Shown: in pieces, positions 29,733 to 61,626 of the stretch
How positions within the stretch are numbered: the first letter of the stretch is position 1
Layout: the number at the start of each line of letters is the position of its first letter
Origin: Lachnospiraceae bacterium V9D3004
GTDB lineage: Bacteria; Bacillota; Clostridia; Lachnospirales; Lachnospiraceae
Direction of reading: 5' to 3'
DNA: 64,000 nucleotides
Assembly (NCBI GenBank): GCA_000621985.1
Contig: JHWW01000005.1
Location: 62,001 to 126,000 of the forward strand
Notes under the pieces: generated by a model
The model's database searches: none
What the model saw: only the letters and a program-made list of their open reading frames with translations
Told to the model about the DNA's origin: nothing
Position numbers and translations under genes: made by a program

Positions 29733-29753
29733 TGGACGAATCCATGTCACCCA
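29733..29753 (+). repeat. Left copy of 21 bp direct repeat
   Basis: 21 bp (TGGACGAATCC then ATGTCACCCA) identical to 60254-60274 in the same orientation. An inverted half copy ATTCGTCCAC lies at 29681-29690. Candidate arm-type site for the recombinase or excisionase, or a second att site. Confidence 0.65.
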
Positions 29754-29833: not shown

Positions 29834-29885
29834 ATTATATCAAATAATATGATAAATGTACAGAGTCAGCCCGAACTTTTGTTCT
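29834..29885 (-). promoter_or_regulatory. uvrB promoter with LexA box
   Basis: Minus strand: -35 TGTACA (29857-29862), 17 bp spacer, -10 TATAAT (29834-29839). The LexA site AGAACAAAAGTTCG (29872-29885) sits directly upstream of the -35. An identical arrangement precedes the stranded uvrB end at 60746-60797. SOS control of uvrBA is well established for Gram-positives. Confidence 0.85.
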
Positions 29886-30265: not shown

Positions 30266-30366
30266 ACTATCATCCCCTAACCCAAATTTCATTCTATCGT
30301 CTTGTAAAAACTCGGAACTTCAATAAAGGTTCTTACCATAAGCATATTCATCTCTTATATGTCTAT

Positions 30367-31720: not shown

Positions 31721-31721
31721 A

Positions 31722-32918: not shown

Positions 32919-33128
32919 TCATACTTCCCCCTTATCCGCATCTCTTAACCACTTATCGAACGATTCCTTGGGTATTCGAACATTTGTTCCGATCCTAATT
33001 ACACGGAACGGCTCCTTGTTCCTATAAGTTTCATCTAGGAATTGGTACGTTTTTGTTCTTCCCAATTTGAGAATTTTACGTATATCCTCCGCAGTATAAA
33101 CCTGTGAATCTAATGAATTATTATTCAT
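32919..33128 (-). CDS. Excisionase-like HTH protein
   Basis: 69 aa, GAAGGAGGGTT upstream. YTAEDIRKILKLGRTKTYQFLD and IRIGTNVRIPKESFDKWL form the MerR-like winged helix of the HTH_17/excisionase family. Directly upstream of two integrase genes, so it is the likely directionality factor. Confidence 0.85.
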   Translation of the reverse strand: MNNNSLDSQVYTAEDIRKILKLGRTKTYQFLDETYRNKEPFRVIRIGTNVRIPKESFDKWLRDADKGEV

Positions 33129-40023: not shown

Positions 40024-40051
40024 CAAAAAAATCGAAGGGAGTTGAAGAAAT

Positions 40052-40942: not shown

Positions 40943-41885
40943 AATAATCGCAAAGACAAAGGAATTATCCACACATGACTGGCTTATGTTACGCAAACAG
41001 GGCATAGGCGGTTCTGATGCCGGTGCGGTATGCGGGTTCAATCCTTATGTATCCCCGATAGATACATATATGGATAAAATAAGTGCTGATATAATTCCAC
41101 AGGAAGAAAACGAAGCCGTGAGGTCAGGCAGGGATCTTGAGGAATATGTTGCACGAAGATTTTCAGAAGCCACAGGACTTAAGATACGGAGAGCCAATGT
41201 AATGTATGCGAGCAGAGAATACCCTTTTATGATTGCTGATGTTGACAGGCTTATAGTCGGCAAAGATACAGAAGGACAGGTCATAGGTCTTGAATGTAAG
41301 ACTGCAAGCCCCTATTCTGCCGACAAATGGAAAGATGGGCAGATTCCGGCTCATTATCTTACACAGTGCTACCATTATATGGCTGTACTTGATGCAAATG
41401 TATGGTATATAGCAGTCCTGATATATGGCAGGGAATTCAAGTATATTAAGATTGAGCGTGATGAAGATATAATAAACTCCCTTGTAGAAGTTGAGAAAGA
41501 CTTCTGGTATAACAATGTCCTTGCAGGGATAATGCCTGCACCTGATGGAACAGAAGCAACGACCAAGGCAATTAACAGGCTGTTTGGCAACAGCATAGAA
41601 CATTCATCGAAAAAACTTATCGGTTTTGATGAACAGCTTAAGAGAAGGTCAGAGATAGACGGACTGATTGAGAAGCTGAATACAGAGAAGAATACGATCG
41701 ACCAGGAGATTAAGACCTATATGGAAAATGCCGAAGTAGCCGAAAATGACAATTATATCATTACGTGGAAGACAATTATAAGCAACCGTATCAATTCATC
41801 AAAGCTGAAAGAGGAAGAACCAGATATATATAATAAGTATCTGAATCCGATACCGCAAAGAAGATTCATGGTAAAGGCTGTGTAG
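40935..41885 (+). CDS. YqaJ-family lambda-exonuclease-like nuclease
   Basis: 316 aa, GGGGAGTGG upstream. Motifs: GIGGSDAGAVCGFNPY near residues 21-36, FMIADVDRL near 98, GLECKTASPYSADKW near 115, and the Tyr-rich HYLTQCYHYMAVL. Together these form the PD-(D/E)xK nuclease that resects double-strand ends for the RecT annealase encoded 51 bp downstream. The C-terminal SKLKEEEPDIYNKYLNPIPQRRFMVK ending is shared with the copy at 434-1369. Confidence 0.93.
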   Translation: MYKIIAKTKELSTHDWLMLRKQGIGGSDAGAVCGFNPYVSPIDTYMDKISADIIPQEENEAVRSGRDLEEYVARRFSEATGLKIRRANVMYASREYPFMIADVDRLIVGKDTEGQVIGLECKTASPYSADKWKDGQIPAHYLTQCYHYMAVLDANVWYIAVLIYGREFKYIKIERDEDIINSLVEVEKDFWYNNVLAGIMPAPDGTEATTKAINRLFGNSIEHSSKKLIGFDEQLKRRSEIDGLIEKLNTEKNTIDQEIKTYMENAEVAENDNYIITWKTIISNRINSSKLKEEEPDIYNKYLNPIPQRRFMVKAV

Positions 41886-41936
41886 TTACATAATACTATG
41901 CAGCCTTATTTTATTACGAAGGGAGATTATAATTAT

Positions 41937-42794
41937 ATGGATTTCAAAGAAAAAATAACGAACAAGGCAGCAAAAACCACAACAGTTGAAAATGCACCTG
42001 CAGTTAAGAAAAGTACCAATGTGCTGAAATCATCCATGAGCATAGCAGAGATCATAAAAGCAATTGAACCCGAGATCAAAAGGGCTCTTCCGGCTGTAAT
42101 TACCCCTGAACGATTTACAAGGATGGCTCTTAATGCCATTTCCAATACACCTGCACTTAATAAATGTACCCCTATGTCTTTTATAGCGGCACTCATGAAT
42201 GCTGCACAGTTAGGTCTTGAACCCAATACCCCTCTCGGACAGGCTTATCTCATTCCGTATAATAACAAGAAGAAAGGCGTTACAGAATGTCAGTTCCAGA
42301 TTGGTTATAAGGGGATGATAGACCTGGTATACCGCAACGAGAATGTTCAGACCATTCAGGCACAGGTCGTATATGAAAATGACGCATTTGAATACGAGCT
42401 TGGAATAAACAGTAAACTCCGACACATTCCGGCAATGAATGACAGGGGAGAGATGATATATGTATACGCATTGTTCAAACTGCAGAATGGCGGTTATGGT
42501 TTTGAGGTAATGAACCGTGAAAGTGTCATAGCCCATGCAGAGAGATATTCCAAATCATTTGACAGCTACAGCCCCTGGAAGACTGATTTTGAGGCTATGG
42601 CAAAAAAGACAGTAATCAAGAAGCTTCTTAAGTTCGCACCACTTAAAGCTGATTTCCAGAGGGCAATAGCCACTGACGAGACTATCAAGAACGAGCTTGC
42701 AGTCGATATGACAGAGCTGAATGGTGAAGATTATTATGATTTGGATGAAGCAAATGAAGGTACTTTGATACCTGACACACAATTTGCCATGTAG
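41937..42794 (+). CDS. recT: RecT-family single-strand annealing protein
   Basis: 285 aa from ATG 41937 (MDFKEKITNKAAK), which has GAAGGGAG upstream; the earlier ATG at 41898 has no site. ITPERFTRMALNAISNTPAL, MSFIAALMNAAQLGLEPNTPLGQAYLIPY and QIGYKGMIDLVYRN are the classic RecT core. It anneals complementary single strands after YqaJ resection. The partial protein at the left edge (1-412) may be the functional counterpart on the other element. Confidence 0.95.
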   Translation: MDFKEKITNKAAKTTTVENAPAVKKSTNVLKSSMSIAEIIKAIEPEIKRALPAVITPERFTRMALNAISNTPALNKCTPMSFIAALMNAAQLGLEPNTPLGQAYLIPYNNKKKGVTECQFQIGYKGMIDLVYRNENVQTIQAQVVYENDAFEYELGINSKLRHIPAMNDRGEMIYVYALFKLQNGGYGFEVMNRESVIAHAERYSKSFDSYSPWKTDFEAMAKKTVIKKLLKFAPLKADFQRAIATDETIKNELAVDMTELNGEDYYDLDEANEGTLIPDTQFAM

Positions 42795-42832
42795 GGATAC
42801 TGGGATAAATCAAAAGAAAGGAGCTGCCACCA

Positions 42833-43174
42833 ATGCGAAACAGCACATATAGCAGTCAACTCAGGCATCTGCGTAAAAAAGTATTAAGGGAGCACAATCA
42901 ATACCGCAAGCGCATGATGTTCTCTACTCCAAAAGAAATCTACGACAACTGCAATGAAATTCAGTTTTACGAATGTGTATCAGAATACTTTCGGTATAAC
43001 GAACACATTAATCCGGAATATTTATCAGCATGCAATATGTATCCTCATGTAATCAAGCATCTACACAACCTGTATCTTAAGTACGAGAATCTTCAGGTCA
43101 ACACATGGGAAGGCATTGATGAACTGCTTAACTGCCTTGTCTATAGACAGAAGTCATATCTAAGGGCATGCTGA
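42833..43174 (+). CDS. Hypothetical protein, 113 aa
   Basis: AAAGGAG upstream of ATG 42833. Basic, Arg/Tyr-rich helical N-terminus (SSQLRHLRKKVLREHNQYRKRMM) suggests nucleic-acid binding; the remainder is helical with several Tyr and Asn. It follows recT by 38 bp and is probably the last gene of that operon. Family not recognised. Confidence 0.65.
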   Translation: MRNSTYSSQLRHLRKKVLREHNQYRKRMMFSTPKEIYDNCNEIQFYECVSEYFRYNEHINPEYLSACNMYPHVIKHLHNLYLKYENLQVNTWEGIDELLNCLVYRQKSYLRAC

Positions 43175-43242
43175 TAATAGAATATCGGAAGCATGGTCAA
43201 AACTCAAAAGTTTTGGCTATGTTTTCTTCTGTCCCATTTTAA

Positions 43243-43293
43243 GCCATTTCTGCGTGGTCAATACTTATTGTCAAAAGTAAGCGTGGAAATGGC
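43243..43293. repeat. Inverted repeat upstream of the resolvase genes
   Basis: GCCATTTC (43243-43250) pairs with GAAATGGC (43286-43293) around a 35 base loop, 280 bp before a serine resolvase gene. It could be a subsite of a res region or a transcript-end hairpin. Confidence 0.4.
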
Positions 43294-43339
43294 GTATTAT
43301 TCTTGCCATTATTAACCAATTCCGAAAGGGTGTGAAAAT

Positions 43340-43576
43340 ATGTATGACGCTGATATGTGGGTAGGGTGTAAGGCACATACATCAAGACAGTTAATGAAGT
43401 ATTTAATACTGAAAACGAATCCTGATACACGTATATGTATATGCGGCTCCGGTAATGTCTATCTTCACCTTACCGGTGATAAATCAGTAATGAGCCTTGA
43501 TAATGATTCATTATCAGAGCTTGAAGAATACGATGGCAGGGAGCCATTAAAGATAACGGAGGTGCTGCATATATGA
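43340..43576 (+). CDS. Hypothetical protein, 78 aa
   Basis: AAAGGGTGTG upstream. Short strands and helices ([33 protein letters not shown]). Its stop overlaps the resolvase start by 4 bp (ATGA), so the two are coupled. Function unknown. Confidence 0.6.
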
Positions 43577-44202
43577 AGATCGGGTATGCGAGGGTAAGCA
43601 CGACCAAACAGGCAAAGGACGGCAACAGTCTTGAACATCAGGAATCCGCATTAAAGGCCGCAGGTGCGGAATGCATATACAGTGACGCTTTTACCGGAAC
43701 CAAGACACACCGACCAGAACTTGATAAGCTTCTTAAGGTTCTGAAAGACGGTGATACCCTTATCGTCACGAAGTTAGACCGAATTGCAAGGAGCACAATA
43801 CAGGGCATTGAGCTTATTGAATCACTTCTTAATAAAGGTATTGTTGTTCATGTCCTTAATATCGGCATTATGGATACGACACCTACCGGACGTCTTATAC
43901 GAAATATCTTCCTTGCCTTTGCAGAATTCGAGCGTGAAATGATTATCGAGAGGACACAGGAAGGCAAGCAGATAGCAAAGAATAATGCCGATTTCAGGGA
44001 AGGGCGACCAAAGAAGTTTTCAAGGGCGCAGATGGAGCATGCAATGACGCTTCTTGAAAACAACTCTTACAGACAGGTATCAGAGATGACCGGAATATCT
44101 ATCAGTAGTCTTACAAGAGAAAGCCGGAGAAGAAAAGAACAGTCCATTTACCTTAATGACGAAGATTTTGGTTTTCTGGAATATAAAAATAAAGGATGGT
44201 GA
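43573..44202 (+). CDS. Serine recombinase, resolvase type
   Basis: 209 aa. Catalytic Ser 9 in [27 protein letters not shown], and the E-helix [16 protein letters not shown]. The C-terminal HTH is [22 protein letters not shown]. Probably resolves multimers of the element's circular form, since integration is better explained by the tyrosine recombinases. Followed after 6 bp by ligA. Confidence 0.93.
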
Positions 44203-44208
44203 TATAAA

Positions 44209-46182
44209 ATGAATAACGACCAATACAACAAGTTACCAAAAATGCGCTCTTTAATAAGAAGAATTACCGAAGCAGATACAGCATACTTCAAGTATGACAA
44301 CCCTATTATAAGTGACCGTGATTATGACCTCATGGTTGAAGAACTGAAGACGCTTGAAAAAGAGACCGGAATTATCCTATCCAACTCTCCGACTAACAGA
44401 GTGTCCGGCGAAGTATTGAGCGAGCTTAAAACGGTTCAGCACTCCAAGCCTATGCTCTCCGCAGATAAGACCAAGTCCGAGGATACGCTTGTATCGTTTG
44501 CAGATAAGGATGACGTTCTTCTCTCGTGGAAGCTTGACGGTCTTACGCTTGTACTCCGATATGATAACGGTAAGTTCAGGCAGGCAATAACAAGGGGTAC
44601 AGATGGTATCTTCGGCGAGGATGTAACACACACAGTTAAGAACTTCCTTAATGTACCGCTTACGATTCCCTGTAAGAAGAAGTTCGAGGTAAGGGGCGAG
44701 GGCGTTATATTGTGGAAGAACTTTGAAAGTATCAACAACAGTCTTGATATTCCCTACTCCCACCCCAGAGGCTTGGCAGCCGGAAGTGTAAGGAAACTTG
44801 ATTCAACGGATTCAAAGGAACGTAAGCTAGAATTCATTGCATTTGAGCTGATTATGCCAAATGACAGGACAGCAAATAAACTGGATCATTTCCAGTTCCT
44901 TACCACTAACGGATTCTCTGTAGTTCCGCATATATACATAAAGGCAGGAACAGGCAGTAATAAGGTGCTACGTGCAATAAAAGACTTCAATCCCGCCGGA
45001 TATGAATATCCTGTAGATGGTCTTATTATGGAATACGCTGACATTGCTTATGGTAAAAGCCTCGGTTCAACCGGACATCACGAGAACAGGCTTATTGCCC
45101 TTAAATGGGAAGATGAATTATATGAGACCAAGTTCACCGGAATTGAGATGGCAGTTACAAGAAGTGGTATGGTAAGCCTGACTGCACTATTTGAACCCGT
45201 GGAGATTGACGGGGCTAAGGTGAGCAGAGCTTATCTGCATAATCTTAATATGGTTGACAACCTTCAGCTCGGCATAGGTGATACTATCAGCGTATACAAG
45301 GCGAATAAGATAATACCACAGATTGCTGACAACCGTACACGCAGCGGAACATATATGATCCGCAGGGAATGTCCGTGTTGTAATGCCAGGCTCACTATCC
45401 ATAAGTCATCAGGTGGAACAAGACAGCTGTTTTGTGACAATCCCCACTGCACAGCAAAGCTTGTAAGGAAGTTTGTTCACTTCTGTAAAAAGACCAGAAT
45501 GAATATAGAAGGTCTTTCAGAGAAGACGTTGACAAAGTTCATATCAAGGGGCTGGATTAAGGACTTCGCTGACCTGTACCGTCTTGAACAGTATAAGGAT
45601 AAGATTATTAATACTGACGGATTCGGAATGAAATCATACGAAAGACTCCAGACATCCATTGAGAAAAGCCGACACTGCACTCTTAATAAGTTCATTGCCG
45701 CTATGGGAATACCGATGGTCGGCAGGACTGCCGGAAGAACTATCAGCAGATACTTCAACGGTTCTTGGAGTGCGTTTGAACAGGCACTTATGGAAAACTT
45801 CGACTTCACCAATCTTAAGGACTTTGGGGAAGTAATGCATGAAAACATGTATCTGTGGTACACGGATAAAGAGAATGAGAAACTGTGGAGACCATTATTA
45901 TCAATATTAGAATTCAGGGAGGATGATATTATAATGACAAATAACGCCAAAACAAATGTATTTACAGGAAAGACCATTGTTACAACTGGAAAGCTTGTTG
46001 GATATACAAGAAACGGTATTAATAACCGGATAATGTCACTTGGAGCAAAAGCAGGTTCTTCTGTTACACGTAATACCGACTATCTCATTGTCGGCGATAA
46101 ACCCGGAAGCAAGCTCACAAAGGCAAGAGAGCTTGGGATTACGATATTGTCGGAGCAGGAGTTTGAATCAATGATTGCCTGA
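44209..46182 (+). CDS. ligA: NAD-dependent DNA ligase, element-borne
   Basis: 657 aa, nearly full length for LigA. Adenylation Lys in SWKLDGLTL near residue 108; GTDGIFGEDVTHTVK and VRGEGVILWKNF complete the nucleotidyltransferase; CPCCNARL...CDNPHC is the zinc finger near 390-412; an HhH region and a C-terminal BRCT domain (FTGKTIVTTGKLVGYTRNG) follow. It is likely a second copy in the cell, since bacteria need a housekeeping ligA elsewhere. Together with YqaJ and RecT it could seal annealed DNA. Confidence 0.95.
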   Translation: MNNDQYNKLPKMRSLIRRITEADTAYFKYDNPIISDRDYDLMVEELKTLEKETGIILSNSPTNRVSGEVLSELKTVQHSKPMLSADKTKSEDTLVSFADKDDVLLSWKLDGLTLVLRYDNGKFRQAITRGTDGIFGEDVTHTVKNFLNVPLTIPCKKKFEVRGEGVILWKNFESINNSLDIPYSHPRGLAAGSVRKLDSTDSKERKLEFIAFELIMPNDRTANKLDHFQFLTTNGFSVVPHIYIKAGTGSNKVLRAIKDFNPAGYEYPVDGLIMEYADIAYGKSLGSTGHHENRLIALKWEDELYETKFTGIEMAVTRSGMVSLTALFEPVEIDGAKVSRAYLHNLNMVDNLQLGIGDTISVYKANKIIPQIADNRTRSGTYMIRRECPCCNARLTIHKSSGGTRQLFCDNPHCTAKLVRKFVHFCKKTRMNIEGLSEKTLTKFISRGWIKDFADLYRLEQYKDKIINTDGFGMKSYERLQTSIEKSRHCTLNKFIAAMGIPMVGRTAGRTISRYFNGSWSAFEQALMENFDFTNLKDFGEVMHENMYLWYTDKENEKLWRPLLSILEFREDDIIMTNNAKTNVFTGKTIVTTGKLVGYTRNGINNRIMSLGAKAGSSVTRNTDYLIVGDKPGSKLTKARELGITILSEQEFESMIA

Positions 46183-50342: not shown

Positions 50343-52868
50343 TCATCCTTTAATAAGCGGCAATATTACATCATAAAACTTCTTTGTCCACTCCGCATGA
50401 AACCTTGCCATCTGAAGCCAATCAGTTTCATTTTCTATACTGACGTTATTAAGCTGAACATAAATCTTGGATGATTTTTTATCTTCTCCACGATCCCAAA
50501 TCAGCGTTGTCCTCAGCTTGTCTTCTATCTCTGCTTTATGGGCATAAATGCTATCATAAACCGACTTATTCTCTTCTTTACTTCTGTTTAGTTTTATTTC
50601 TGCCCTTGCACAGTCATAGTTTGCCACACAGCACAGATAAAACCCACCTAATCCGAAAAATCCATTGATACTGTTGAACCGGGATGGATTCATATTGCTG
50701 AAAGGACCTTCAGAACCATGCTCCTGTTGGATGATTGGCAGCGCATATGACCAATATTTTCTTCTCAGCTCAAATCTGCTTCCGGGATCGTCCAAATCCT
50801 CTTCGCCTTCATCTCTCAGAAAAAAAACCAAATCCGCCGTATCTTCATCATATAACTTGAACAGACGGCTTAAAACAGATAATTTGCTTTGTGTACTTGT
50901 ATTGGTCCATACATGAATGCCATCTCCAATCTCTAACGATTTTGTGAAAGCATCTTCAGTGGTACTGAAATGAAGCGCAATATTATCGTCATCAGACATT
51001 GCCAGTTTTGTTATGATGGACTTATCCTCTTCATAAAGTATCTGAATAACCTTTTGGAACATTTCAACCCAGCTAGCCACAGGTTGCTCCGTCTTTTTGA
51101 ATGAAAATCTTGCGATCGTCCTTCCAGTCAGTTCACCTTCATCTTCCAACGTATAAGATTCCAACTGCTTTTCTTCCGGTTTATAAGCCGTCACCGGTCT
51201 CTTCCAGATTGTTAATGCTCTTTCTTTTAGGAAGTCGCTTCGCTCTTCTAATTCAGGTAACGACCATTTCTCTTTCCTTGATATCCACATATTAAGACGA
51301 ATACCACTGTCATCAAAGCCGTTTTCCATAGTCTTTTTTTCTATGAATGAACTATTACTGTATTTTGAATTATATGCCGTCAATGTCAGATTTGCGATTC
51401 TGTGAAGCCATGTCTCATGTATCTCGTCATAATCATCCCCCAGTTCCTTCTGCCATACGGGAGTCAGATGCTGTGGCATGATATGCTCGATTGAATAATC
51501 TCCATCATCAAAATGGCGATATACATCTTTATCCTCAGCAGTACCATAGTTTTCAAGGCGTTCCAGTATGTATATCTTATTCTTGCTGTTCATCTGATAA
51601 ACAGCCCTATCCACAAAAGCTTGTGAAAATTCCTCATCACTCGGGAAGCGTGCGCGCTCTTTCTTTGTTATCAGAGCATATTTAACCTTCTCCACATAAT
51701 TATCCTCTGAACCTTCATAACGCACAATCTCCCTGTGAAGCAACAGAAAGATCTTATTCAACGCATTGGTAGGCAGATCACATATATTTCTGCGGAAAAG
51801 ATAATTTTCAGCCATCAGAAATATCTCCGTTACCTGATACAGTGCCAGCTTATTCTCATCATATAACCGCAATACTTCAAGAAAATACGGTCTTGCAACT
51901 GTCGTTTCCAATCTATTCAGTCTGAAAATACAGGCGTTCAATTCCTTGCTCCCTGTATTACCGTCTAAGAGTATCTGATACCGTTTGGCATAAGAAAGCA
52001 TCTCTGTCAATAGCGGTTCAGGTGATGTCTCATTCTGATTAACATATTCCTTAAAAGTTATATAAATCTTCTTCTGCGGTGGAATCGCCTGCTGTTTAAC
52101 ACTTAGATAATCTCTTATAAAAGCACTCACATCGTACTTCGTGTATACCTCAATCTTGTTCCAATATTTATCGTAATAATCCTCCTGCTCTTTGGAAGGA
52201 AGCCCCATAAGAATAAAGTTCCTTATCTTATCACCTTCACTCAGATCCAGACCTGTTGAATTAAGGCTTTCAAATATTAGTTGCGGATTATCATCCTTAT
52301 CAAGCCGAATGTTTATTATTTCCAAACAACAAATAGCGTCATAAAGCTGGTCTATTGTTATTTCCTGCTTCTGAATCCTGTCAAAAAAATAATCATAGTT
52401 CACCGTAAGATTGGATTCACGGATATGATCTGACGGATCATCAAATAGTTTTCCAAAAGCTCGTTGATCATTTTTTACCGGTTTAAGCTTGATGCGGGTT
52501 TCCTCCGGTTTCCATTTGTCAACTAAGTATTCTTCAAAGATCCGCTGTTTCAGATTGGATGTCTCAGAAGACATCACTCCCTTGTCTATCAGGTTATACA
52601 TTGCCAGAAATAACAACGATACTGTAGTCAATCTCTGCTGACCGTCAATTATGAGAAACTCCTCATTATGACCATCAGGATTATACACAGAAACAATGCT
52701 GCCGAAAAAATGGCTTTTACGTTCTCCTTTTACAATCTTTACCAGATCATCGTAAAGCTGTTTACAATTTTCTGTCTTCCAGTCATAATTTCTCTGATAG
52801 ACAGGAATTACAAATCTCTTATCAGACCCCTCCATGTATTTAACAAATTTGCATTCCGAACCCTTCAT
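50343..52868 (-). CDS. GmrSD-like DUF262/DUF1524 restriction protein
   Basis: 841 aa. DUF262 at the N-terminus with FVIPVYQRNYDWK and the nucleotide-binding motif LIIDGQQRLTTVSLLFLA near residue 72. DUF1524 near 455-510 with the HNH-type motif YSIEHIMPQHLTPVWQKE and HRIANLTLTAYNSKYSN. A DUF4268-like domain forms the last 250 residues. The GmrSD class is a type IV restriction system that cuts modified phage DNA. It lies 44 bp after the helicase gene, so it forms part of the restriction operon. Confidence 0.92.
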   Translation of the reverse strand: MKGSECKFVKYMEGSDKRFVIPVYQRNYDWKTENCKQLYDDLVKIVKGERKSHFFGSIVSVYNPDGHNEEFLIIDGQQRLTTVSLLFLAMYNLIDKGVMSSETSNLKQRIFEEYLVDKWKPEETRIKLKPVKNDQRAFGKLFDDPSDHIRESNLTVNYDYFFDRIQKQEITIDQLYDAICCLEIINIRLDKDDNPQLIFESLNSTGLDLSEGDKIRNFILMGLPSKEQEDYYDKYWNKIEVYTKYDVSAFIRDYLSVKQQAIPPQKKIYITFKEYVNQNETSPEPLLTEMLSYAKRYQILLDGNTGSKELNACIFRLNRLETTVARPYFLEVLRLYDENKLALYQVTEIFLMAENYLFRRNICDLPTNALNKIFLLLHREIVRYEGSEDNYVEKVKYALITKKERARFPSDEEFSQAFVDRAVYQMNSKNKIYILERLENYGTAEDKDVYRHFDDGDYSIEHIMPQHLTPVWQKELGDDYDEIHETWLHRIANLTLTAYNSKYSNSSFIEKKTMENGFDDSGIRLNMWISRKEKWSLPELEERSDFLKERALTIWKRPVTAYKPEEKQLESYTLEDEGELTGRTIARFSFKKTEQPVASWVEMFQKVIQILYEEDKSIITKLAMSDDDNIALHFSTTEDAFTKSLEIGDGIHVWTNTSTQSKLSVLSRLFKLYDEDTADLVFFLRDEGEEDLDDPGSRFELRRKYWSYALPIIQQEHGSEGPFSNMNPSRFNSINGFFGLGGFYLCCVANYDCARAEIKLNRSKEENKSVYDSIYAHKAEIEDKLRTTLIWDRGEDKKSSKIYVQLNNVSIENETDWLQMARFHAEWTKKFYDVILPLIKG

Positions 52869-52912: not shown

Positions 52913-55900
52913 TCACCCGAAACAATCGTTCACGAGAGCCTCCAATGTATCATTTTTTGATGCTTTGGCAGCATCCGCTTCCACGAAATTATGCGTATCA
53001 GCCTTTAGTTCTTCGTCAAATCCAAGAATATAATTCGTAGCTATGAGATAAATAATTCTCGTAGGAGCCATACCATAAACCTGTTTACTCAATATGTGTC
53101 GTATTCTCTCTTTATCATCAGGAATAGCCTTTTTCATACCCTCACTCCGATACAGCCTCTTCACAATTTCCGTGATATACAACCCGGACTTCATATACAG
53201 ATCTGCGTAGGTCTTCGTCGGATCATCAAAACACCCGGGATTATTCTCTTCCAGCTGATCTACCATCTTTTCCACCACCCATCTGGGCGTGAAGATCTGG
53301 TTTGTCTTCTGTGGAGGAATATAGTCAAAGATATCCTCATCCTTTGACTCATCGAAATAATCAGCCAGTTCCTGCTTCTTCTTCCAAAATTCTTCAATGG
53401 AATCGTTGAATACAACCTCATCAAAGAGATGTCCGTCAAAATGCTGTACCTCTCCTGTATCCGGATCTTCATAATCTCCACCATCTCTTAAGAAGCGGAA
53501 ATCATCTTCGGTAATGCCGGTCACTTCAAGGAAAACATCATCCTCGGTATAATCATCGAAGTTTGCAAGAGTCAGATGTCCATCTCCATATGCCATGATA
53601 AAGCTCGGAATAGTGCGTGAAAAACCTCTCAGATGTGCCCTCACCTCATCTTCCACAGTACGCTTTTCCTGTTCTGCCTGAGCTTTCTCCAACTGCTCCA
53701 CAAGCTCCTGCGGCTTCTCTTCAATAGTTTTCTTAACACTCTGCTGTACCGCCTCAGTAAAAGCTTTCATTGCATCTTCCATAACAGCCTTGTACTTATC
53801 CTCAGCCTGTCTTACTTCCTGTGGGTCTTGAGCCTCTTTCTGCTCTCTTTCAAATTCAGCCTGAGCGATTCGAGCCTGTTGTTTATAATCTTTCTTTACT
53901 TTTTCAAAGGTATTATCTATCTCATGCTCCACCTGCCGTTCCAGACGGTTCTGCGTATTCTTCTTCACACTGTATTCATTGACAACTGGAGCAACAACAC
54001 GGTCTTTAATACCCTCTTTAATAGAAGATACCAGCGTATCAAGTTTTTCATCCACACCATTAGGATCTGTATTTTCAGATATTGCCGTTACCTGCGACTG
54101 AATACTATCAGTAAACTCTTCATATATCTTTTCACCGAACAGGTCCTGTGTCTTTCCTATTACAATCTCATTATCAACCTTAACCTCACCATCATCATTC
54201 ACAGATACATTATTCATACCATCCAACACGGAATTATCACGCTTTTTCTGCTGAACTTCTGCTGCCGGTGTGAGTTTCTCCACAATCTCACGCACAATAC
54301 TTGGTGCTCCAAATACATTGCTGATATTTCTGAATAGAAAATTGCACATGAAACCCTTGCGTACCACTTCTGCGCTCTTTAATGCCCTTGGGATGGAAAG
54401 AACGGATGACGCATCCAGTTCCACCATCTTACCCTCGGTATCCTCACCTATAACCGGAAAGAAGTTTAAAAGCCTTCGGATATTATCTTTCCTATCATCA
54501 GTTGTACCCTGCCCACGAACAGTTTCCGGCTGAAGGTTATTGGCAAATTCATCAAAGATGATCAGTGTACGTGCCGGATCAAAGTCAAATACATATGCAG
54601 TCTCTTTCCTGTATCTCTGTCCGTTCTTAGTCAGAATGCACGGATTCTGTGCACGAAATGCAGCTTGCATATAAGATGACGGACTCTTCATATTGCAAAG
54701 CATAAGAACACCGCTCCACTCCGGTATGGTAACACCTACCGTAAGCTGTCCTACCGAAATAGTTATGGTCTTATCATTATTTGCTATAGCAGCTTTAACA
54801 CGGTCAAATGCAGCCTCGGAATCTTCCTCTTCCATAAGCTTTCCGTCACCCGCTGCCAATACAATCTTATATTCTCCAAATACGGGATCATCATTAAGAA
54901 GTTTTGCTAAAGCCTTTGCGCTGGAAACTCTATTCAATATCCACAGAGTGTGGGAAAGTTCATCCCGCAGTTTCTCTGTAGAGAATGGATATTTTTCTTG
55001 TGTAACCAGGGCATGAAGGAATTTCTTTATTTCATCCTCACGAATAAACTTTCCGCTATCGTTTGTACGTAAGAACTCATTCAGGTCAAATGCCGGATCT
55101 ACAGCACCCTCTTCTTCTGAAAGATCCAGCCCTTTTTCCAGTCTTTCCCTTATCATTGGAGAAAGCTGATAGGTATACATCGCCAACCTCGGCAACGCCT
55201 CATAAGGATTATTGTCTTCACCATCCCAATTATCTTTTCTTTCCTGCTCATCAGCATAGGACCAGTTGTAGATCTGATCTCTTGCAAACTGCTCACTGGC
55301 AATAGCCTTAAATGGTGTACCAGACAGATAAAGTGTATGTTTCCTAGCTATATTCCTAAACGCACGATCAGTCCGCATAGTATCCACACCTTCTTGTGCC
55401 TCATCAATCACCAAAAGGTCAAACTGCATTCCATGTTGTTTCTTCCCATACTGATCCGAGTATTCCTTTGCCATCCAGGCAAGCTTATCGTACTTTCCTC
55501 CGAAATATACCGAACCCTTTAAGCCCTGCAATGATTCAAACGCAACCATTCCAAAAGATGCTTCTTCCACTCTTGAGCTCATCGCTTTGAGATATCCTTC
55601 TCTGGAAATCACCCCAGGCTTTCCTCTTAATGCATCTGTCTCAGATACAAAAGATAGTTCACCTCGCCATCCAATAAACTTGTGGAAATCTTCAGCCCAT
55701 GAATTAGCAATACTCGGTCTGTTGGTCACGATCAAGACGTTCTGAAATCCCATTTGTCTTATAAGATCATAGGTAGTCAGCGTCTTTCCAAATCTCGGCT
55801 TAGCATTCCACAAAAATTCTTTGCCACCGTTCTCAAAATATGACTTTGTCATCTCCACGGCTTGTTTCTGCTCATCACGAAGGGCATATTCAAATTTATC

Positions 55901-56269
55901 TTCTTCCTTTTGAAAAGTCTCACGCCTCGCAAATTTGTCAAAATAGGTTCTCAGAACATCCGCACGCTCATTAAACCATTCAGTTCCCGGTGTGCGCTCA
56001 ACCTCACAATCCAATTCCAGAAAAGCATGGAAATCATGATCAGTGAAATACTCCCCGGAACCATCCTTATACATAGCATTATCCTGCCAAGCAAGTACGT
56101 ACTTGATATCAGCAGTATGTGTCTGCTGTTTAATCCGCTTATCCACAGACTGCTTCTCTGTATATCCAACTTTAGTCCAGCCTTCATGATATGCTACGCC
56201 CGGAGTATTGTAGGCATAAATCATGGGAACTACTTTCTTGAACGACTTGATTTTAGGAGTATTCGCCAT
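52913..56269 (-). CDS. GIY-YIG nuclease-SF2 helicase-methylase fusion
   Basis: 1118 aa. Residues about 16-110 are a GIY-YIG-type nuclease (MIYAYNTPG, WTKVGYTEK, GEYFTDHDFHAFLE). An SF2 restriction helicase follows: Walker A NAKPRFGKTLTTYDL, LVIDEAQEGVD, LYLSGTPFKA. A Gln/Glu-rich coiled coil covers about 800-910. The C-terminal 120 residues (IFTPRWVVEKMV, DLYMKSGLYITEIVKRLY, QVYGMAPTRIIY) match the SAM-binding half of an adenine methylase. The start overlaps the upstream stop as TAATG. The Walker A gene context fits the restriction motor of a type I/III-like system. Confidence 0.9.
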   Translation of the reverse strand: MANTPKIKSFKKVVPMIYAYNTPGVAYHEGWTKVGYTEKQSVDKRIKQQTHTADIKYVLAWQDNAMYKDGSGEYFTDHDFHAFLELDCEVERTPGTEWFNERADVLRTYFDKFARRETFQKEEDKFEYALRDEQKQAVEMTKSYFENGGKEFLWNAKPRFGKTLTTYDLIRQMGFQNVLIVTNRPSIANSWAEDFHKFIGWRGELSFVSETDALRGKPGVISREGYLKAMSSRVEEASFGMVAFESLQGLKGSVYFGGKYDKLAWMAKEYSDQYGKKQHGMQFDLLVIDEAQEGVDTMRTDRAFRNIARKHTLYLSGTPFKAIASEQFARDQIYNWSYADEQERKDNWDGEDNNPYEALPRLAMYTYQLSPMIRERLEKGLDLSEEEGAVDPAFDLNEFLRTNDSGKFIREDEIKKFLHALVTQEKYPFSTEKLRDELSHTLWILNRVSSAKALAKLLNDDPVFGEYKIVLAAGDGKLMEEEDSEAAFDRVKAAIANNDKTITISVGQLTVGVTIPEWSGVLMLCNMKSPSSYMQAAFRAQNPCILTKNGQRYRKETAYVFDFDPARTLIIFDEFANNLQPETVRGQGTTDDRKDNIRRLLNFFPVIGEDTEGKMVELDASSVLSIPRALKSAEVVRKGFMCNFLFRNISNVFGAPSIVREIVEKLTPAAEVQQKKRDNSVLDGMNNVSVNDDGEVKVDNEIVIGKTQDLFGEKIYEEFTDSIQSQVTAISENTDPNGVDEKLDTLVSSIKEGIKDRVVAPVVNEYSVKKNTQNRLERQVEHEIDNTFEKVKKDYKQQARIAQAEFEREQKEAQDPQEVRQAEDKYKAVMEDAMKAFTEAVQQSVKKTIEEKPQELVEQLEKAQAEQEKRTVEDEVRAHLRGFSRTIPSFIMAYGDGHLTLANFDDYTEDDVFLEVTGITEDDFRFLRDGGDYEDPDTGEVQHFDGHLFDEVVFNDSIEEFWKKKQELADYFDESKDEDIFDYIPPQKTNQIFTPRWVVEKMVDQLEENNPGCFDDPTKTYADLYMKSGLYITEIVKRLYRSEGMKKAIPDDKERIRHILSKQVYGMAPTRIIYLIATNYILGFDEELKADTHNFVEADAAKASKNDTLEALVNDCFG

Positions 56270-57291
56270 TATGCCATCTCCTTTACATGTGCTTCGATAA
56301 AATGTATCTCTTCATTTGTAAGTCCGTACTTCTTATAGAGTTGCTGATCAATTTCTCTAATACTCTTGTTCCAGTCAATATCAGATGATAATGTAAAATC
56401 TTGTTGTGGAATCCTCGACCATACCACTTTTGATTGATTATTTTGTGTGGTCTTCATTATTCCCAGTAGTGCTCGTGCAAATTTACACTTGATATATTTA
56501 GCAAGCGCCTTAGCTTCGTAATCCGTATCAAACTCACCCATGCTAAGAAATGTCTGTGTATGAGCTGATTCTGGCTCCGCTACTATTGGATTACTTAATA
56601 GTTCTCCAAAAGTACCTGATCCAATAGCTCCAGCCATTAACACTTTCCATTTATGCAAATTGCCTTGATCATTAAAATATTCACGTTTTGCATAGAATGC
56701 AATACGCTCTCCACCCTTTCGTCCAATAACTTTTACATCCCCCTCTTCCTTTTCATTCCTAAAAATCTCCGGATAACGTTCAAAAACACTTGATGCTACG
56801 GCTTTAGCGTGTGCTTTATCAGTTCTACCTATAAGAACAGGATTCTCTTCAAATATAGCATCCGAAAAACGAAAACTATCAGGGCTATGCACCAAATTAC
56901 CAATATTCTTATCAAGAAAAGGTCTAACTTTTTCAAAAATAGTCCGTAATTCTTCAGTCTTTATAAATACTCCAATGGAGCCAAATTCTTTTACATTATC
57001 ATGTAGTGAGACAACTACGCCACCTTTAATATCCACACCATTAAAGATAACCGAACTGTCTTCATAATATGAAAGTACCTTAAAATGCTCATCTTCTAGC
57101 ATTTTTTTATTCCATGCCTTAGGTGTTGCACCTGCCTGTGTCAAAAATCTCGCTGGATGAATCAGTTCAACAACCGAACCAATTTGATATGCATTATCCA
57201 TAAACTGATTATAAATCGGTTTAGCTTGATTATTTTCCCCCACATAATCATCTTGATACGGCGGATTCCCAATAATAAAATCAAACTTCAT
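56269..57291 (-). CDS. Eco57I-type N6-adenine methylase subunit
   Basis: 340 aa from ATG 57291 (MKFDFIIGNPPYQDDY), with GGAGG eight bases upstream. The first 20 residues already contain catalytic motif IV NPPY, so the motif I half of the enzyme is missing at the N-terminus and must come from another polypeptide, most likely the C-terminus of 52913-56269. The remainder (IHPARFLTQAGATPKAWNKK, KGGVVVSLHD) includes a target-recognition region. It overlaps the KilA-N gene by 11 bp. Confidence 0.88.
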   Translation of the reverse strand: MKFDFIIGNPPYQDDYVGENNQAKPIYNQFMDNAYQIGSVVELIHPARFLTQAGATPKAWNKKMLEDEHFKVLSYYEDSSVIFNGVDIKGGVVVSLHDNVKEFGSIGVFIKTEELRTIFEKVRPFLDKNIGNLVHSPDSFRFSDAIFEENPVLIGRTDKAHAKAVASSVFERYPEIFRNEKEEGDVKVIGRKGGERIAFYAKREYFNDQGNLHKWKVLMAGAIGSGTFGELLSNPIVAEPESAHTQTFLSMGEFDTDYEAKALAKYIKCKFARALLGIMKTTQNNQSKVVWSRIPQQDFTLSSDIDWNKSIREIDQQLYKKYGLTNEEIHFIEAHVKEMA

Positions 57292-58174
57292 CTGTGTTTC
57301 CTCCACTTTCAGTATCTTTTGCTGTCTCAATCAGAGACTGTTTCAAGTTCTCAATCACTTTTCCGTTATTTCTAAGAAGCTCTAATTGCCTGTATGCCTT
57401 TTCTCTGAGTATTTTAAGCCGCTCTGTCTGTGACAGCCCCTGTGCAATAAGATCAGCATTTGTATCTTCCAAATTGATGAGCACAACCAGTTCTTCTGCC
57501 GATGCGTAATCCCTTATATTTGGCGACATTCCTTTTGTATCTGTCTCCCGTCTCCACTGAGATGCTGTCTTTCCGAAAAGAGCCATATTGAGCACATCTG
57601 CTTCCGAAGCATATTTATACGATATCTCCTCTGGTGTAAGATCCGGTCTGATAAGAAATCTCTTTACTGCATCAGTATGTATTCGGTAATTAATCTTCGA
57701 CAGTTCCCTTTTTGCATCCCAGCCTATAGACAATCTCTGTGACTCATCTTTTTTCAATCTTTGGTAATCTTTTATCAGATACAGCTTGAACTCCGGAGAT
57801 ATCCACGATGCAAACTCGAAAGCGATATCCGTGTGAGCATATGTGCCACCGTATCTTCCTGATTTAGATATTATACCGATAGCATCGGTTGCACTTATCC
57901 ACTGCTGTGGAGTTAGTGTAAATGCGTTATCTCCGGACTCAAATCTAAACCTACCGAATTCGGTGGGTTTAAAATCCGGATTATGTAATTGCTCCCAAAG
58001 TCCTAAAAAATCAATGGTGGAACGATTCCTCATCCAATGACCTATCACAAGCGAAGCATTATCCTGATTTTTGTACTTTGCAATGTCAGTAAGCGAAATA
58101 TATGCCTCTTCGTCCACTACATTACCCATTACGCTTATTTTAGTGCCATTAGCATCAATTTTATATTTTTTCAT
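57281..58174 (-). CDS. KilA-N domain DNA-binding protein
   Basis: 297 aa. EEAYISLTDIAKYKNQDNASLVIGHWMRNRSTIDFLGLWE and GRYGGTYAHTDIAFEFASWISPEFKLYLI are the two halves of the KilA-N fold. The C-terminal half is a helical domain with a coiled coil (SQTERLKILREKAYRQLELLRNNG). Such proteins are common in phages and next to restriction loci; they bind DNA, but the specific role is unknown. It is inserted between the two methylase genes and overlaps the second. Confidence 0.9.
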   Translation of the reverse strand: MKKYKIDANGTKISVMGNVVDEEAYISLTDIAKYKNQDNASLVIGHWMRNRSTIDFLGLWEQLHNPDFKPTEFGRFRFESGDNAFTLTPQQWISATDAIGIISKSGRYGGTYAHTDIAFEFASWISPEFKLYLIKDYQRLKKDESQRLSIGWDAKRELSKINYRIHTDAVKRFLIRPDLTPEEISYKYASEADVLNMALFGKTASQWRRETDTKGMSPNIRDYASAEELVVLINLEDTNADLIAQGLSQTERLKILREKAYRQLELLRNNGKVIENLKQSLIETAKDTESGGNTDEV

Positions 58175-58216: not shown

Positions 58217-59143
58217 TTAGCTATTCCTGTTTAATGAATTAAACACAAGGCTGTCCCCTGCTCTCCAGTCATATATTCTGCATAGTGGCTGTCTGTCCTC
58301 ATTTTCTGTTTCAGTTTCAATCCCCAAAATATCAAAAATCGTCATCTGATGGTTTTCCTCTTGTGCCTTACAATATGGAATAGTCCCTGTCAGCCCGTCC
58401 ATTTGCCATATATTCCAATCAATAATATTGATAAGCTTTTTCAGTTCTTCCAGACTGGCTTTTCGCTTCCATCGTTCTTGAATGTTATCATCAAAGGTCA
58501 TCAGCAGATTTACCCTTGCAATCAACAGATTATCACCCTGGAACTCATACCCATATGTTGCCTGATATGCCCTGATAACCCATTTAATCCATTCAATTTC
58601 ATCCTCAACATTTTCGTTGACCACTCGCAGTTTCCTGTCAAGAATCCCAATACGATAAGGAATCGGTATATATTCCCCCGTCTCCACATCATACCTACTC
58701 ACCAGATACGGAGCCTCTCCGCAAGTAATCTCCAATCGTCTGGAATCCACATATTTCTTCCAGTCTGCAGGTTTCTTAAACTCAATGTGTTCCGTCGGCT
58801 CATTATCCTTATTGAATACATCCGGTCTGCCAAACCATACTTCATCAATATGATTGTTCATCATATTGCAGACCCACATTGGAGTAAAAACCTCCCCATG
58901 AGCTTTTGTCCTGTCGGACTGCTGCTCCATCGCTTTCCTTGCCCTTGTCTTTATAACCCCTGCATTCTTTCCGGATATAAACTCTGCCTTTATCTCCTTA
59001 TCCCTGAAGTATTCACTTCCAAGGTCTCCATAAGCATCTGTCGCCCACATTATATTTTTCTTCGTAGTTTTATCCTGCAATATCCTACCGAGGAGACCTA
59101 AGGACTGCAGTTTTAATATGTCATCCTGTATATTGATAACCAC
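58217..59143 (-). CDS. Restriction system subunit M-like protein
   Basis: 308 aa, starting with GTG 59143 after GGAGGA. AHGEVFTPMWVCNMMNNHIDEVWF matches motif X of adenine methylases and EITCGEAPYLVSRYD takes the place of motif I, but no NPPY motif is present. It is annotated in relatives as restriction endonuclease subunit M. It opens the operon M-like, KilA-N, methylase, helicase, GmrSD-like. It may set specificity or bind DNA together with the methylase half encoded downstream. Confidence 0.82.
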   Translation of the reverse strand: MVINIQDDILKLQSLGLLGRILQDKTTKKNIMWATDAYGDLGSEYFRDKEIKAEFISGKNAGVIKTRARKAMEQQSDRTKAHGEVFTPMWVCNMMNNHIDEVWFGRPDVFNKDNEPTEHIEFKKPADWKKYVDSRRLEITCGEAPYLVSRYDVETGEYIPIPYRIGILDRKLRVVNENVEDEIEWIKWVIRAYQATYGYEFQGDNLLIARVNLLMTFDDNIQERWKRKASLEELKKLINIIDWNIWQMDGLTGTIPYCKAQEENHQMTIFDILGIETETENEDRQPLCRIYDWRAGDSLVFNSLNRNS

Positions 59144-59427
59144 GCAGTTTTCCTCCTAACTCTCTACGGTTTCTTCAGCAGATAACAACATATAAACTCA
59201 TTTTTTAATTTAACCTCTTAAACTATTACCTTAAAACTTTTATCGGTTATAATCATTATTCTACATTAATCAACAATTTCCAGCACGGTTATGATAAATT
59301 AATATAAAATTATAGCATATTTTAACTAAAAAAACAAACAATCATTAGACTCAAAGAACAATTATTCACAAAGTGACTAAATAATAAAAGACTCATAAAA
59401 CTATATCTTACATTAGTCTATAAGTCT

Positions 59428-60183
59428 TTATTCATCACACACATAAAAATGATCATTTCTTTTATCCAACAAGATGCCTTTATTAAGTAGTTTATCAATA
59501 TTTACTATGCACGAATCCTTTATCTCTCCAATATTAAAAGAGTATGATAAATCATCTATTTCTTTCGCTTTTTCCCCCCTGACATCATATACACTCATAT
59601 TAGCATTTAATCCAAAAGAATGGTGCACGCATATTCTAAACTCTTTCTGATTACAAAACCTGATATTTTTATAAAAAGGGATATAATATCTTTCGTTATA
59701 GTTTTCTTTCAATAATTGAATTGCTTTATTATATCCTTCCTCATCAACATAAATTACATCGCCGAAAAATACTTCTTCACAATTCTGACAACAAGCATTT
59801 TCAACTTGCTCCAAAAAAGATTTCCATGAGAATAACAACATCGCACCTTCTACATTAAAATCATATATTGCTCTTTTTTCTTCATCTGAGAAAGTAAACT
59901 TATACATTTCATTTCCTATAGGCTGAAAATCATTTTTTTTGCAATGAAAAAAGCATTTTATAAACGTGTTTAACAAAATAATTCTCTCGTTCTTAGTTTC
60001 CCTTCCGGAAATGGTTTTCATAACACCATTAATATCAGGAAATGGAATACTTCCGTCAAAAGGATCACTTCGAGCCAAATCTGCATTATCAGTTTTCTGA
60101 TAATGCAAACTGTTTTTCATATAAAAACTTCCTTGTTGCAGTTCTTTGAGTCGATCTACATGATCAAATCTTATTAATAACAT
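59428..60183 (-). CDS. Hypothetical protein at the element edge
   Basis: 251 aa, AGAGGTGATT upstream. It opens MLLIRFDHVDRLKELQQGSFYMKNSLHYQ; the pattern of a short hydrophobic strand then L-x-x-G-x-FYM-NSL occurs in several uncharacterised phage-defence-associated proteins, but I cannot name the family. Four Cys are clustered in ENACCQNCEEVFFG. It is the last gene before attR and the first one downstream of the stranded uvrB promoter. The 284 bp gap 59144-59427 shows only AT-rich sequence. Confidence 0.7.
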   Translation of the reverse strand: MLLIRFDHVDRLKELQQGSFYMKNSLHYQKTDNADLARSDPFDGSIPFPDINGVMKTISGRETKNERIILLNTFIKCFFHCKKNDFQPIGNEMYKFTFSDEEKRAIYDFNVEGAMLLFSWKSFLEQVENACCQNCEEVFFGDVIYVDEEGYNKAIQLLKENYNERYYIPFYKNIRFCNQKEFRICVHHSFGLNANMSVYDVRGEKAKEIDDLSYSFNIGEIKDSCIVNIDKLLNKGILLDKRNDHFYVCDE

Positions 60184-60253
60184 TCAATCACCTCTGTTAT
60201 ATAAAGATATTTGCACAATATTAATACCCTATTCCATATCCAATCAATATAAC

Positions 60254-60274
60254 TGGACGAATCCATGTCACCCA
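60254..60274 (+). repeat. Right copy of 21 bp direct repeat
   Basis: Identical to 29733-29753, same orientation, 114 bp inside the right att core. Confidence 0.65.
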
Positions 60275-60387
60275 TAGCTATTAATCCATATAGTTTTTAC
60301 CGTTCATATAGTCCACCCATCCCACAATATATTCCGTTCTCATTCCTTTGAATATCTACATCTTGTGCATGCCTTATATTCCCCATA

Positions 60388-60657
60388 CTAGCTCACAAAA
60401 TACTCAACCGCGTTCTCAGGGAAGAACTCTTTGAACTCGCCGTAAAGCTGCGCCGCAAGAGTTTTGTTATGAGCAATTATCAGTGTCGGCTTCTGGAGCC
60501 GTTCTATCACGTTCGCCATTGTAAATGTCTTGCCGGAACCTGTGACACCTAGAAGTGTCTGTACCTGATTGCCTTCCTTAAAGCCATGAACTAAGGCATC
60601 TATGGCTTCCGGCTGGTCACCGGTTGGGGCGAAATCGGAGTGGAGTTTGAATTGCAT
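60388..60657 (-). pseudogene. uvrB: Stranded 5' fragment of uvrB
   Basis: 89 codons of UvrB ending VEYFVS and a stop. It includes Walker A GVTGSGKT but no helicase domains, so it cannot act as UvrB. Compared with the functional copy it differs at residues 2 (Gln for Asn) and 24 (His for Gln) and at many synonymous sites. It is most simply the original host 5' end, cut off when the element integrated and supplied its own. The promoter remains intact. Confidence 0.92.
60389..60411. other. Right attachment core (att)
   Basis: 23 bp identical to 29291-29313. Immediately to its left the reading frame meets a TAG stop, so the stranded uvrB fragment ends here. Confidence 0.85.
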
Positions 60658-60745
60658 GGGGGTAAGTCCTTTCTGTTATTTTGGGTGGGCGGCGTGGGGT
60701 TATGCAGTAGGTTTTTTCAATTGCTCACTCATTAAGATAAGCTAC

Positions 60746-60797
60746 ATTATATCAGATAATATAAAAAATGTACAGATGTAAATCGAACTTTTGTTCT
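60746..60797 (-). promoter_or_regulatory. Stranded uvrB promoter with LexA box
   Basis: Minus strand -35 TGTACA (60769-60774), 17 bp spacer, -10 TATAAT (60746-60751) and LexA site AGAACAAAAGTTCG (60784-60797). It points into the element. No terminator is visible between it and the gene at 59428-60183. Confidence 0.82.
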
Positions 60798-60810
60798 GTT
60801 ACCAAAATGA

Positions 60811-60841
60811 TAGGAGTATTCCCATTGACCGGAATACTCCT
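60811..60841. terminator. Hairpin upstream of stranded uvrB
   Basis: AGGAGTATTCC pairs with GGAATACTCCT. It ends the small gene at 60854-61054 and is homologous to 29895-29927. Confidence 0.75.
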
Positions 60842-60853
60842 GTAATCTTATCT

Positions 60854-61054
60854 TTATCTTGTTTTTCTAAGCAAATTAACAACAAACACCCTTAATAATC
60901 TTCGTCCTCTCAATCTGCGTCCAGACAGTTCTGGGCATATCCGGAATATCTCCCGAATTGCCGTTGCAGTTTCACCTTTATGCTTTATCATCTGTTCATC
61001 AAATATCTGCGAGAACCGGATATATTCCTCGAAGATACCCGTTACATTCTTCAT
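60854..61054 (-). CDS. Small basic protein, possibly a remnant
   Basis: 66 aa with AAAGG upstream and a terminator 13 bp after the stop. The first 45 residues look structured (VTGIFEEYIRFSQIFDEQMIKHKGE), the end is Arg-rich (GRRLRGRRLLRVFVVNLL). It could be a truncated longer gene. Region 61055-61296 shows nothing else. Confidence 0.4.
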   Translation of the reverse strand: MKNVTGIFEEYIRFSQIFDEQMIKHKGETATAIREIFRICPELSGRRLRGRRLLRVFVVNLLRKTR

Positions 61055-61296
61055 GTAGATAACCTTTGCTACTTGTTATACCATAATTACGCACAAATAG
61101 CCACAAGAAAATGGATGAAAATTGACAAAAAAATACAGGCTTTTCAAGGCCTGCAAGGATTTTTCTTTTATTTAACTGTCAAATTACCGGGGATTTATTC
61201 TTTCTCTTCCCTTTTTATGATATTAAGGGATACAATCATGTCTGCCAATGAAAATTATACAATGATCTTGAACTGATCATTGCCTATACTTAGCAT

Positions 61297-61626
61297 ATGA
61301 TATATAATCGTAATCAGATTATTCATATAAAATCTATAAGTTTCTCTTATACGGATACTCTGACCGGTCTTATGAATCGCCGTTGCTTTGATGATGTACT
61401 TGGCCATATATCTTTTCATTCAGCTTTGGGGATCATATTCTGTGATCTGAATAATCTGAAATATATCAATGACCATTTGGGACATGCATCCGGTGATGCT
61501 TATATAGTGCGTTTTGCAGATATTCTTAGGAATATATTTGCTGACAAAGGTGTTATATGCAGGATCAGCGGTGATGAAACGGACACGCAGAATGTAATGT
61601 TTCACATGTATTCTTTTAAAACATAA
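61297..61626 (+). pseudogene. Truncated GGDEF-domain fragment
   Basis: 109 codons. SYTDTLTGLMNRRCFDDVL and IIFCDLNNLKYINDHLGHASGDAYIV are the start of a diguanylate cyclase domain, but the signature reads RISGDETD instead of R-x-GGDEF and the homology stops there. No sensor domain or convincing ribosome binding site precedes it. A decayed c-di-GMP synthase. Confidence 0.75.

Follow-up and report, generated by a model that had tools for sequence, protein, structure and literature searches.

The window analysed here is a stretch of 64,000 nucleotides (positions 62001-126000 of its contig, in a genome of 3.4 Mb) that contains the 5' end of the excision-repair gene uvrB twice, once as part of an intact gene followed by uvrA and once as a stranded stub, and sequence comparison aligns the stub with the 5' end of the intact gene over 275 nt at 89% identity (Table 1). 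Transcribed leftward, the right end is ordered as the putative host SOS promoter, 89 uvrB codons, core, arm repeat and cargo genes, and the left end as recombinases, putative element SOS promoter, arm repeat, 89 codons, core and the host part of uvrB. The 21-nt arm repeat has only these two copies in the genome at up to three mismatches. Between the two ends, the middle of the region (39088-46182, + strand) encodes DUF932, DUF5688, YqaJ recombinase, RecT, resolvase and NAD-dependent DNA ligase proteins.

Table 1. Coordinates of the features at the uvrB locus, numbered from the first position of the window
Feature	Position	Strand	Remarks
uvrA	24713-27532		Downstream of intact uvrB
Intact uvrB, putatively chimeric	27580-29559	-	Open, 659 aa
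Left 23-bp core copy	29291-29313	-	Inside intact uvrB
Left arm-type repeat	29733-29753	-	Leader of intact uvrB
Putative element-borne SOS box and promoter	29834-29884	-	Now serving uvrB; box and promoter scans
Small HTH regulator	29948-30292	-	114 aa
Tyrosine recombinase 2	30443-31762	-	439 aa; Pfam Phage_integrase
Tyrosine recombinase 1	31722-32915	-	397 aa; Pfam Phage_integrase
Excisionase-like HTH_17 protein	32919-33128	-	69 aa; E 1.2e-5, just under the Pfam cut-off
GmrSD-type restriction protein	50343-52868	-	841 aa; Pfam/PADLOC
ResIII / type IIG-like restriction protein	52913-56269	-	1118 aa; Pfam/PADLOC
Eco57I-type methylase	56269-57330	-	Pfam/PADLOC
KilA-N protein	57281-58174	-	PADLOC candidate PDC-S22
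Type II DNA methyltransferase	58217-59143	-	PADLOC MTase_II, E 4.7e-99; no Pfam match
First cargo gene	59428-60183	-	251 aa; no family match
Right arm-type repeat	60254-60274	-	GTGAC-N4-ATTCGT; GTGAC at +119 from codon 89
Right 23-bp core copy	60389-60411	-	Identical stretch, uvrB codons ...AVEYFVS; putative recombination core
Stranded uvrB 5' stub	60388-60657	-	89 codons, then stop TAG
Putative displaced host uvrB promoter	60746-60774	-	TGTACA-17-TATAAT with extended TG; promoter scan
LexA-type box of the displaced promoter	60784-60796	-	CGAACTTTTGTTC

Judged by its anatomy, the segment from about 29291 to 60388 is a 31-kb integrative element lying in uvrB at codon 89/90 and equipped with paired tyrosine recombinases. 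It shows the features of a gene-restoring integrative element, namely an adjoining tyrosine recombinase, a core at both ends, a fixed target codon and an intact target with a putative new promoter. No relaxase, type IV secretion or conjugation gene was found among the subset of window ORFs scanned with Pfam. We infer that the intact uvrB is chimeric, with about its first 89 codons contributed by the element and the remainder by the host, since the recombinases lie on that side and the left leader carries an arm site that none of three element-free uvrB copies has. The flanking genes gave no guide to the host end, as a comparison of the right flank with nine same-genus loci returned a single weak match of 30%. 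The 5' piece attributed to the element is closer to the stub than to any other copy compared, which suggests either an origin of the element in a close relative or an exchange of sequence between the two copies. An exact SOS-type box at 32977-32989, about 60 nt before recombinase 1, falls within the 69-aa excisionase-like ORF and may be either coincidental to the coding sequence or a sign that excision is under SOS control.

Comparison with related genomes indicates that the window element is one member of a family that inserts at a single uvrB codon, most of its members with paired tyrosine recombinases. Of 397 same-family genomes, 19 (its own included) encode a relative of recombinase 1 (E up to 1e-50), and uvrB or its 5' piece directly adjoins the recombinase genes at 16 of the 19 loci compared (the recombinase match of G219 was left out). 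G375 has one recombinase instead of two; in G331 the stub lies about 3 kb off on the other side and the full uvrB lies outside the locus; and two loci (L068, L070) run off their contigs. At 1e-45, recombinase 1 was found in 2 of 391 class genomes, again including its own, with no uvrB within the short locus of the other genome, and an integrase search of genome contigs found no relative. When the 89-aa stub was searched for (E up to 1e-18), at least two copies of the uvrB 5' end were present in 34 of the 397 family genomes, the window's own among them. The 41 stranded copies compiled from 33 of these genomes (G285, with two uvrB matches, was left out) and from G005, G008 and G009, which were added from a genus search in which G003 (25 uvrB residues at a contig edge) was not used, provided 39 readable junctions, one of them out of register and read by eye (G166b) and one repeating another (G331b and G331a). 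All 39 share the break point, uvrB homology stopping no more than 12 nt past the NAVEYFVS codons. A conserved built-in stop after the core was also considered and rejected: codon 90 is a stop in 23 of the 39 readable rows and the next codon in 7, a frequency near chance because TA is already fixed by the core.

The arm site recurs in the family as well. GTGAC, often followed by ATTCGT, is located at +110 to +121 from codon 89 at 30 of 38 right ends, 26 of which have it at +119 to +121, and it lies 100-220 nt before the intact uvrB at 19 of 26 element-bearing loci versus 0 of 3 element-free ones; as GTGAC has only five bases it is weak alone, and the weight rests on its fixed position at the right end. 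The two ends of the window element (G000) share 24 nt with one mismatch allowed, versus at most 14 with unrelated left ends, and those of G055a share 22 nt, versus at most 18. For G291b (23 nt) and G123 (17 nt) an unrelated pair matched equally well or better, and the remaining end pairs mostly share no more than unrelated pairs do, which makes this repeat test weak beyond a few members.

At both uvrB copies of the window a LexA-type box is followed by TGTACA-17-TATAAT with an extended TG, and over 57 nt around the promoter the two copies are 82% identical. LexA-type boxes number three in the window against 0.22 expected, at 60784 (the stranded copy), 29872 (the promoter attributed to the element) and 32977 (the small excisionase-like ORF). 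The initial annotation had described the stranded promoter as facing leftward with a LexA box and perfect -10 and -35 hexamers. The box is indeed an exact one, and the leftward orientation and the perfect -10 (TATAAT, with extended TG and a 17-nt spacer) were borne out, but the -35 hexamer reads TGTACA, which agrees with the consensus at 4 of 6 positions, so that a perfect -35 had to be discarded. The stranded box sits 9 nt upstream of the -35 and not over it; promoters of the form T(A/G)TAC(A/T)-17-TATAAT or TATACT with TG are common in the relatives, mostly 20-23 nt past the start of the box. The same genome has a lexA gene (above the family cut-off), with AGAACATTTGTTTG located 67 nt before its likely ATG. 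Given the box and the presence of lexA, the stranded promoter is predicted to be regulated as a member of the SOS (LexA) regulon.

The stop of the stub (60388) is separated from the 251-aa gene (60183) by 204 nt, which is best read as DNA of an attachment-site arm. Our own scan found no terminator in this gap, in agreement with the initial claim that no hairpin with a U-tract precedes 60183, a claim that needs qualifying in that a consensus tool flagged one weak 7-bp hairpin at 60274-60254. The 21 nt of this hairpin recur at 29753-29733, between the putative element promoter and uvrB, and a strong stop is thus unlikely. Likewise, no promoter-like site was found on the - strand of the gap, either at score 10 in our own scan (cut-off 10, the TG counting as one) or at 9/12 with the consensus tool. 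From 60800 to 50200, our own scan yielded only hairpins within coding sequence, three weak ones at -6.6 to -8.4 kcal/mol, and no terminator outside it. The co-directionality of the genes from 60183 to 50343, also claimed beforehand, was confirmed: each of the six cargo genes is encoded on the - strand, and the + strand ORFs of this stretch (up to 250 aa) overlap them. The first and second cargo genes are 284 nt apart. An Rfam RNA in 58900-61300 was rejected, the sole match falling under the gathering score and belonging to a eukaryotic-type family. Taken together, the box, the promoter, the lack of a terminator in our own scan, the lack of a gap promoter at 9/12 or better and the co-directional cargo support transcription of the 251-aa gene by read-through from the stranded SOS promoter. 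In this window, induction of that gene by DNA damage is likely, and the read-through could plausibly reach the restriction genes across the 284-nt gap. A point against is that about 200 nt of untranslated RNA before the 251-aa gene could permit Rho-dependent ending.

These features can be joined in one explanation, to which we assign a probability of about 0.6: an element at uvrB, an exchange of promoters and SOS read-through into the 251-aa gene. The recombinase pair would insert the element into uvrB at codon 89/90, and the element would supply the first 89 uvrB codons together with an SOS promoter and a leader containing an arm site. An open uvrB would thus be rebuilt, while the SOS promoter of the host and its 89-codon stub would be displaced to the far end, facing the cargo. 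In the circle formed by excision at the core, the arm and the cargo would be directly preceded by the SOS promoter and 89 codons of the element. Hence, the cargo would stand behind a uvrB-type SOS promoter both in the circle and in the integrated state, and integration would swap the copy that serves uvrB. Transcripts from the stranded promoter would then cross the 204-nt arm into the 251-aa gene and rise upon LexA cleavage, transcription onward into the restriction genes, 284 nt beyond, being a less certain step. The explanation builds on two SOS promoters, a shared core, arm repeats at both ends, co-directional cargo and a 251-aa gene before which neither a terminator nor a promoter was detected, and from these we infer which end is the host's, the place of the promoter in the circle and the rise of read-through upon damage. 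The initial annotation had proposed that the 251-aa protein, and perhaps the restriction operon, come under LexA control on integration. Read-through into the 251-aa gene is supported by the anatomy, but the circle would already carry a uvrB-type SOS promoter at the same spot upstream of the cargo, and the promoter would thus be exchanged and not newly gained.

SOS boxes are also found above chance across the family. An exact GAACN4GTTC lies within 420 nt upstream of 11 of 40 stranded copies (0.18 expected from shuffles), and a box with at most one mismatch upstream of 27 (4.5 expected), leaving 13 without; the 40 copies exclude G031, which is too short upstream, and still include the duplicate G331b. 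Intact uvrB copies have an exact box in 14 of 29 cases (0.1 expected) and one with at most one mismatch in 22 (3.0 expected), and the difference in exact boxes between stranded and intact copies is not significant (P 0.13). Three element-free genomes have the -35 at 60-71 nt before uvrB, and in intact copies beside an element it is mostly 190-360 nt from the gene (exceptions: L114 at -71 and L126 at -415). Distances are mixed for stranded copies, from about -57 to -349, as expected if some of these are themselves element-borne. Within 197 kb of downstream sequence, the sole exact box belongs to the intact uvrB's own promoter in G122; the scarcity of exact boxes in the cargo was dropped as evidence, few being expected anyway.

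The enrichment of boxes in stranded copies speaks against a reading in which the stranded promoter is inert debris, the choice of the site is what matters, read-through is short or terminated by Rho, and the cargo has promoters of its own. This reading is likewise at odds with the window gap, in which our own scan found no terminator and no promoter-like site was detected, and with three recombinase-less relatives, discussed below, that seem to need read-through for uvrB. Nevertheless, several stubs have in-frame stops or shifted frames, and a forward terminator-like hairpin is present in the gap of 11 of 35 elements, compared with 3 in reverse and 1.35 in shuffles (20 rounds), while 15 of 34 have a promoter-like site there, compared with 6 in reverse. 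The set of 35 leaves out the duplicate G331b, G168b (whose cargo is that of G034), G166a, G005 and G354 (downstream sequence too short) and G008 (without an ORF of 100 aa), and that of 34 additionally G396, which is too short. On these counts, the arrangement of promoter and cargo is no fixed rule, many members may run their cargo independently, and in roughly a third of the family the cargo seems to be insulated. Weighed against the boxes and the window gap, the debris reading is rather unlikely. In G044, G365, G315 and G358, the preceding gene ends no more than 12 nt from the stub, which suggests that the cargo there is read by an operon transcript and not from an SOS promoter.

The orientation of the cargo carries less weight. 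The first ORF of at least 100 aa is co-directional in 34 of 35 cases on the cargo side, versus 26 of 31 for the first host gene (Fisher P 0.09), and co-orientation was rejected as decisive evidence because the host side is biased nearly as much. Bacteria of this group have a strong leading-strand gene bias, and the odds are about even that this general bias, together with an avoidance of head-on transcription, accounts for the co-orientation. Such a bias bears on the orientation evidence alone, leaves the boxes of the stranded copies and the missing terminator in the window unexplained, and is compatible with promoter exchange and SOS read-through. Alternatively, the arrangement could concern excision and not cargo, with recombination linked to DNA damage by SOS transcription across the two attachment sites and by the arm site of the leader. 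The arm repeats downstream of both SOS promoters in the window and the box-like site at 32977 before recombinase 1 are consistent with this, but the latter lies within the excisionase-like ORF, where it could have arisen by coding coincidence, and we consider this alternative quite improbable.

Returning to read-through from the stranded promoter, three relatives (G044, G200 and G161; loci L099, L116 and L119) have a short insertion in uvrB that carries cargo and lacks a recombinase. Ten elements were examined for terminators between the stub and the intact uvrB. In these three, that interval has no terminator of -8 kcal/mol or better and the 350 nt next to uvrB hold no promoter-like site, whereas the seven others have such a terminator, a promoter-like site or both. 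Thus, uvrB in these three probably depends on transcription through the cargo; in G200, the end of the last cargo gene lies 20-23 nt from uvrB. In G044 and G161, the sequence upstream of the stub revealed no strong promoter (a one-mismatch box is present in G161 and none in G044), and an operon promoter may thus drive transcription there.

The nature of the cargo varies. The 251-aa protein has no match in Pfam, PADLOC, PHROGs, plasmids or viral contigs and one other match in 397 family genomes, at 23% and with a stop, and its single-sequence structure model reaches a pLDDT of 30.7. A PADLOC scan covered one or two cargo proteins per element in 24 elements, and all six in the window, and returned defence-model matches (1e-10 or better) in 14 of the 24. 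These include AbiU, AbiTi, AbiEii, RhuM-type PDC-S05, PDC-M62A/B, a PD-T4-6-like kinase and the restriction genes of the window; several are matches to candidate systems only, and a DinG-like helicase (G167) and an ABC ATPase (G034) may be generic. An RnlA-like toxin is encoded in one element and a Y-family polymerase in one. The latter (L125:734-2281, G031) is a UmuC-like DNA polymerase with an SOS-type function, located in the cargo after a frame-shifted stranded stub. Cargo content thus differs between elements of the uvrB family. As a tentative generalization, which we hold with less confidence than the reading of the window, uvrB islands, whether circular or integrated, may keep exchangeable defence cargo behind a swapped SOS promoter of the uvrB type, which would lead to co-induction of defence and excision repair, and recombinase-less descendants would transcribe uvrB through defence genes. 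If so, a mobile island would regulate its cargo by a promoter traded with the host at every move, and DNA-damage control would be given to whichever defence gene occupies the first slot. The SOS response would then be linked to phage defence, and the recurrent integration site could serve for finding defence genes.

Several known systems resemble this arrangement in part. The streptococcal islands SpnCI and SmiCI, at the 5' end of uvrA, and SpyCI, at that of mutL, likewise integrate site-specifically at the 5' end or promoter of a gene for excision repair or mismatch repair, and insertion of the SpyCI type is reported to interrupt mutL expression, which excision relieves (PMC4129442, PMC3430984). 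Unlike these islands, the uvrB element appears to re-supply an SOS promoter and 5' codons, its displaced promoter faces the cargo, its target is the uvrB coding sequence and its recombinases are paired. Members of the SXT/R391 group insert in the 5' part of prfC, restore a functional gene and can form tandem arrays (PMC4489591, PMC12210918), but prfC encodes a peptide release factor and not a DNA repair protein. SXT is conjugative, whereas the window element has no conjugation gene among the ORFs scanned. Islands at dusA similarly belong to an integrase family that always targets one conserved gene at its 5' end, with putative promoter regions upstream of dusA before and after integration, but no SOS promoter or displaced promoter facing the cargo is described in the sections available (PMC4482086). 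In group B Streptococcus, one ICE is reported to lie between uvrB and secA (PMC12441131). The literature searched on uvrB integration yielded no element at the 5' end of uvrB.

Tandem arrangements occur in the uvrB family too. A relative of recombinase 2 lies just upstream of the stranded 5' piece in G168, G291 (both copies) and G379, and two 5' pieces stand in series in G055 and G166; in these cases, the piece before the cargo seems to have come with another element. The serial pieces of G055 (L097, L066) share a contig with the intact uvrB but lie roughly 4 Mb away from it and run in the opposite direction, a layout that suggests a large inversion or an assembly fault. In G331 (L113, L130), a single contig holds two copies of the stub and its neighbours, which would be about 22 kb from each other if the contig is circular and which represent either two insertions or an assembly duplication.
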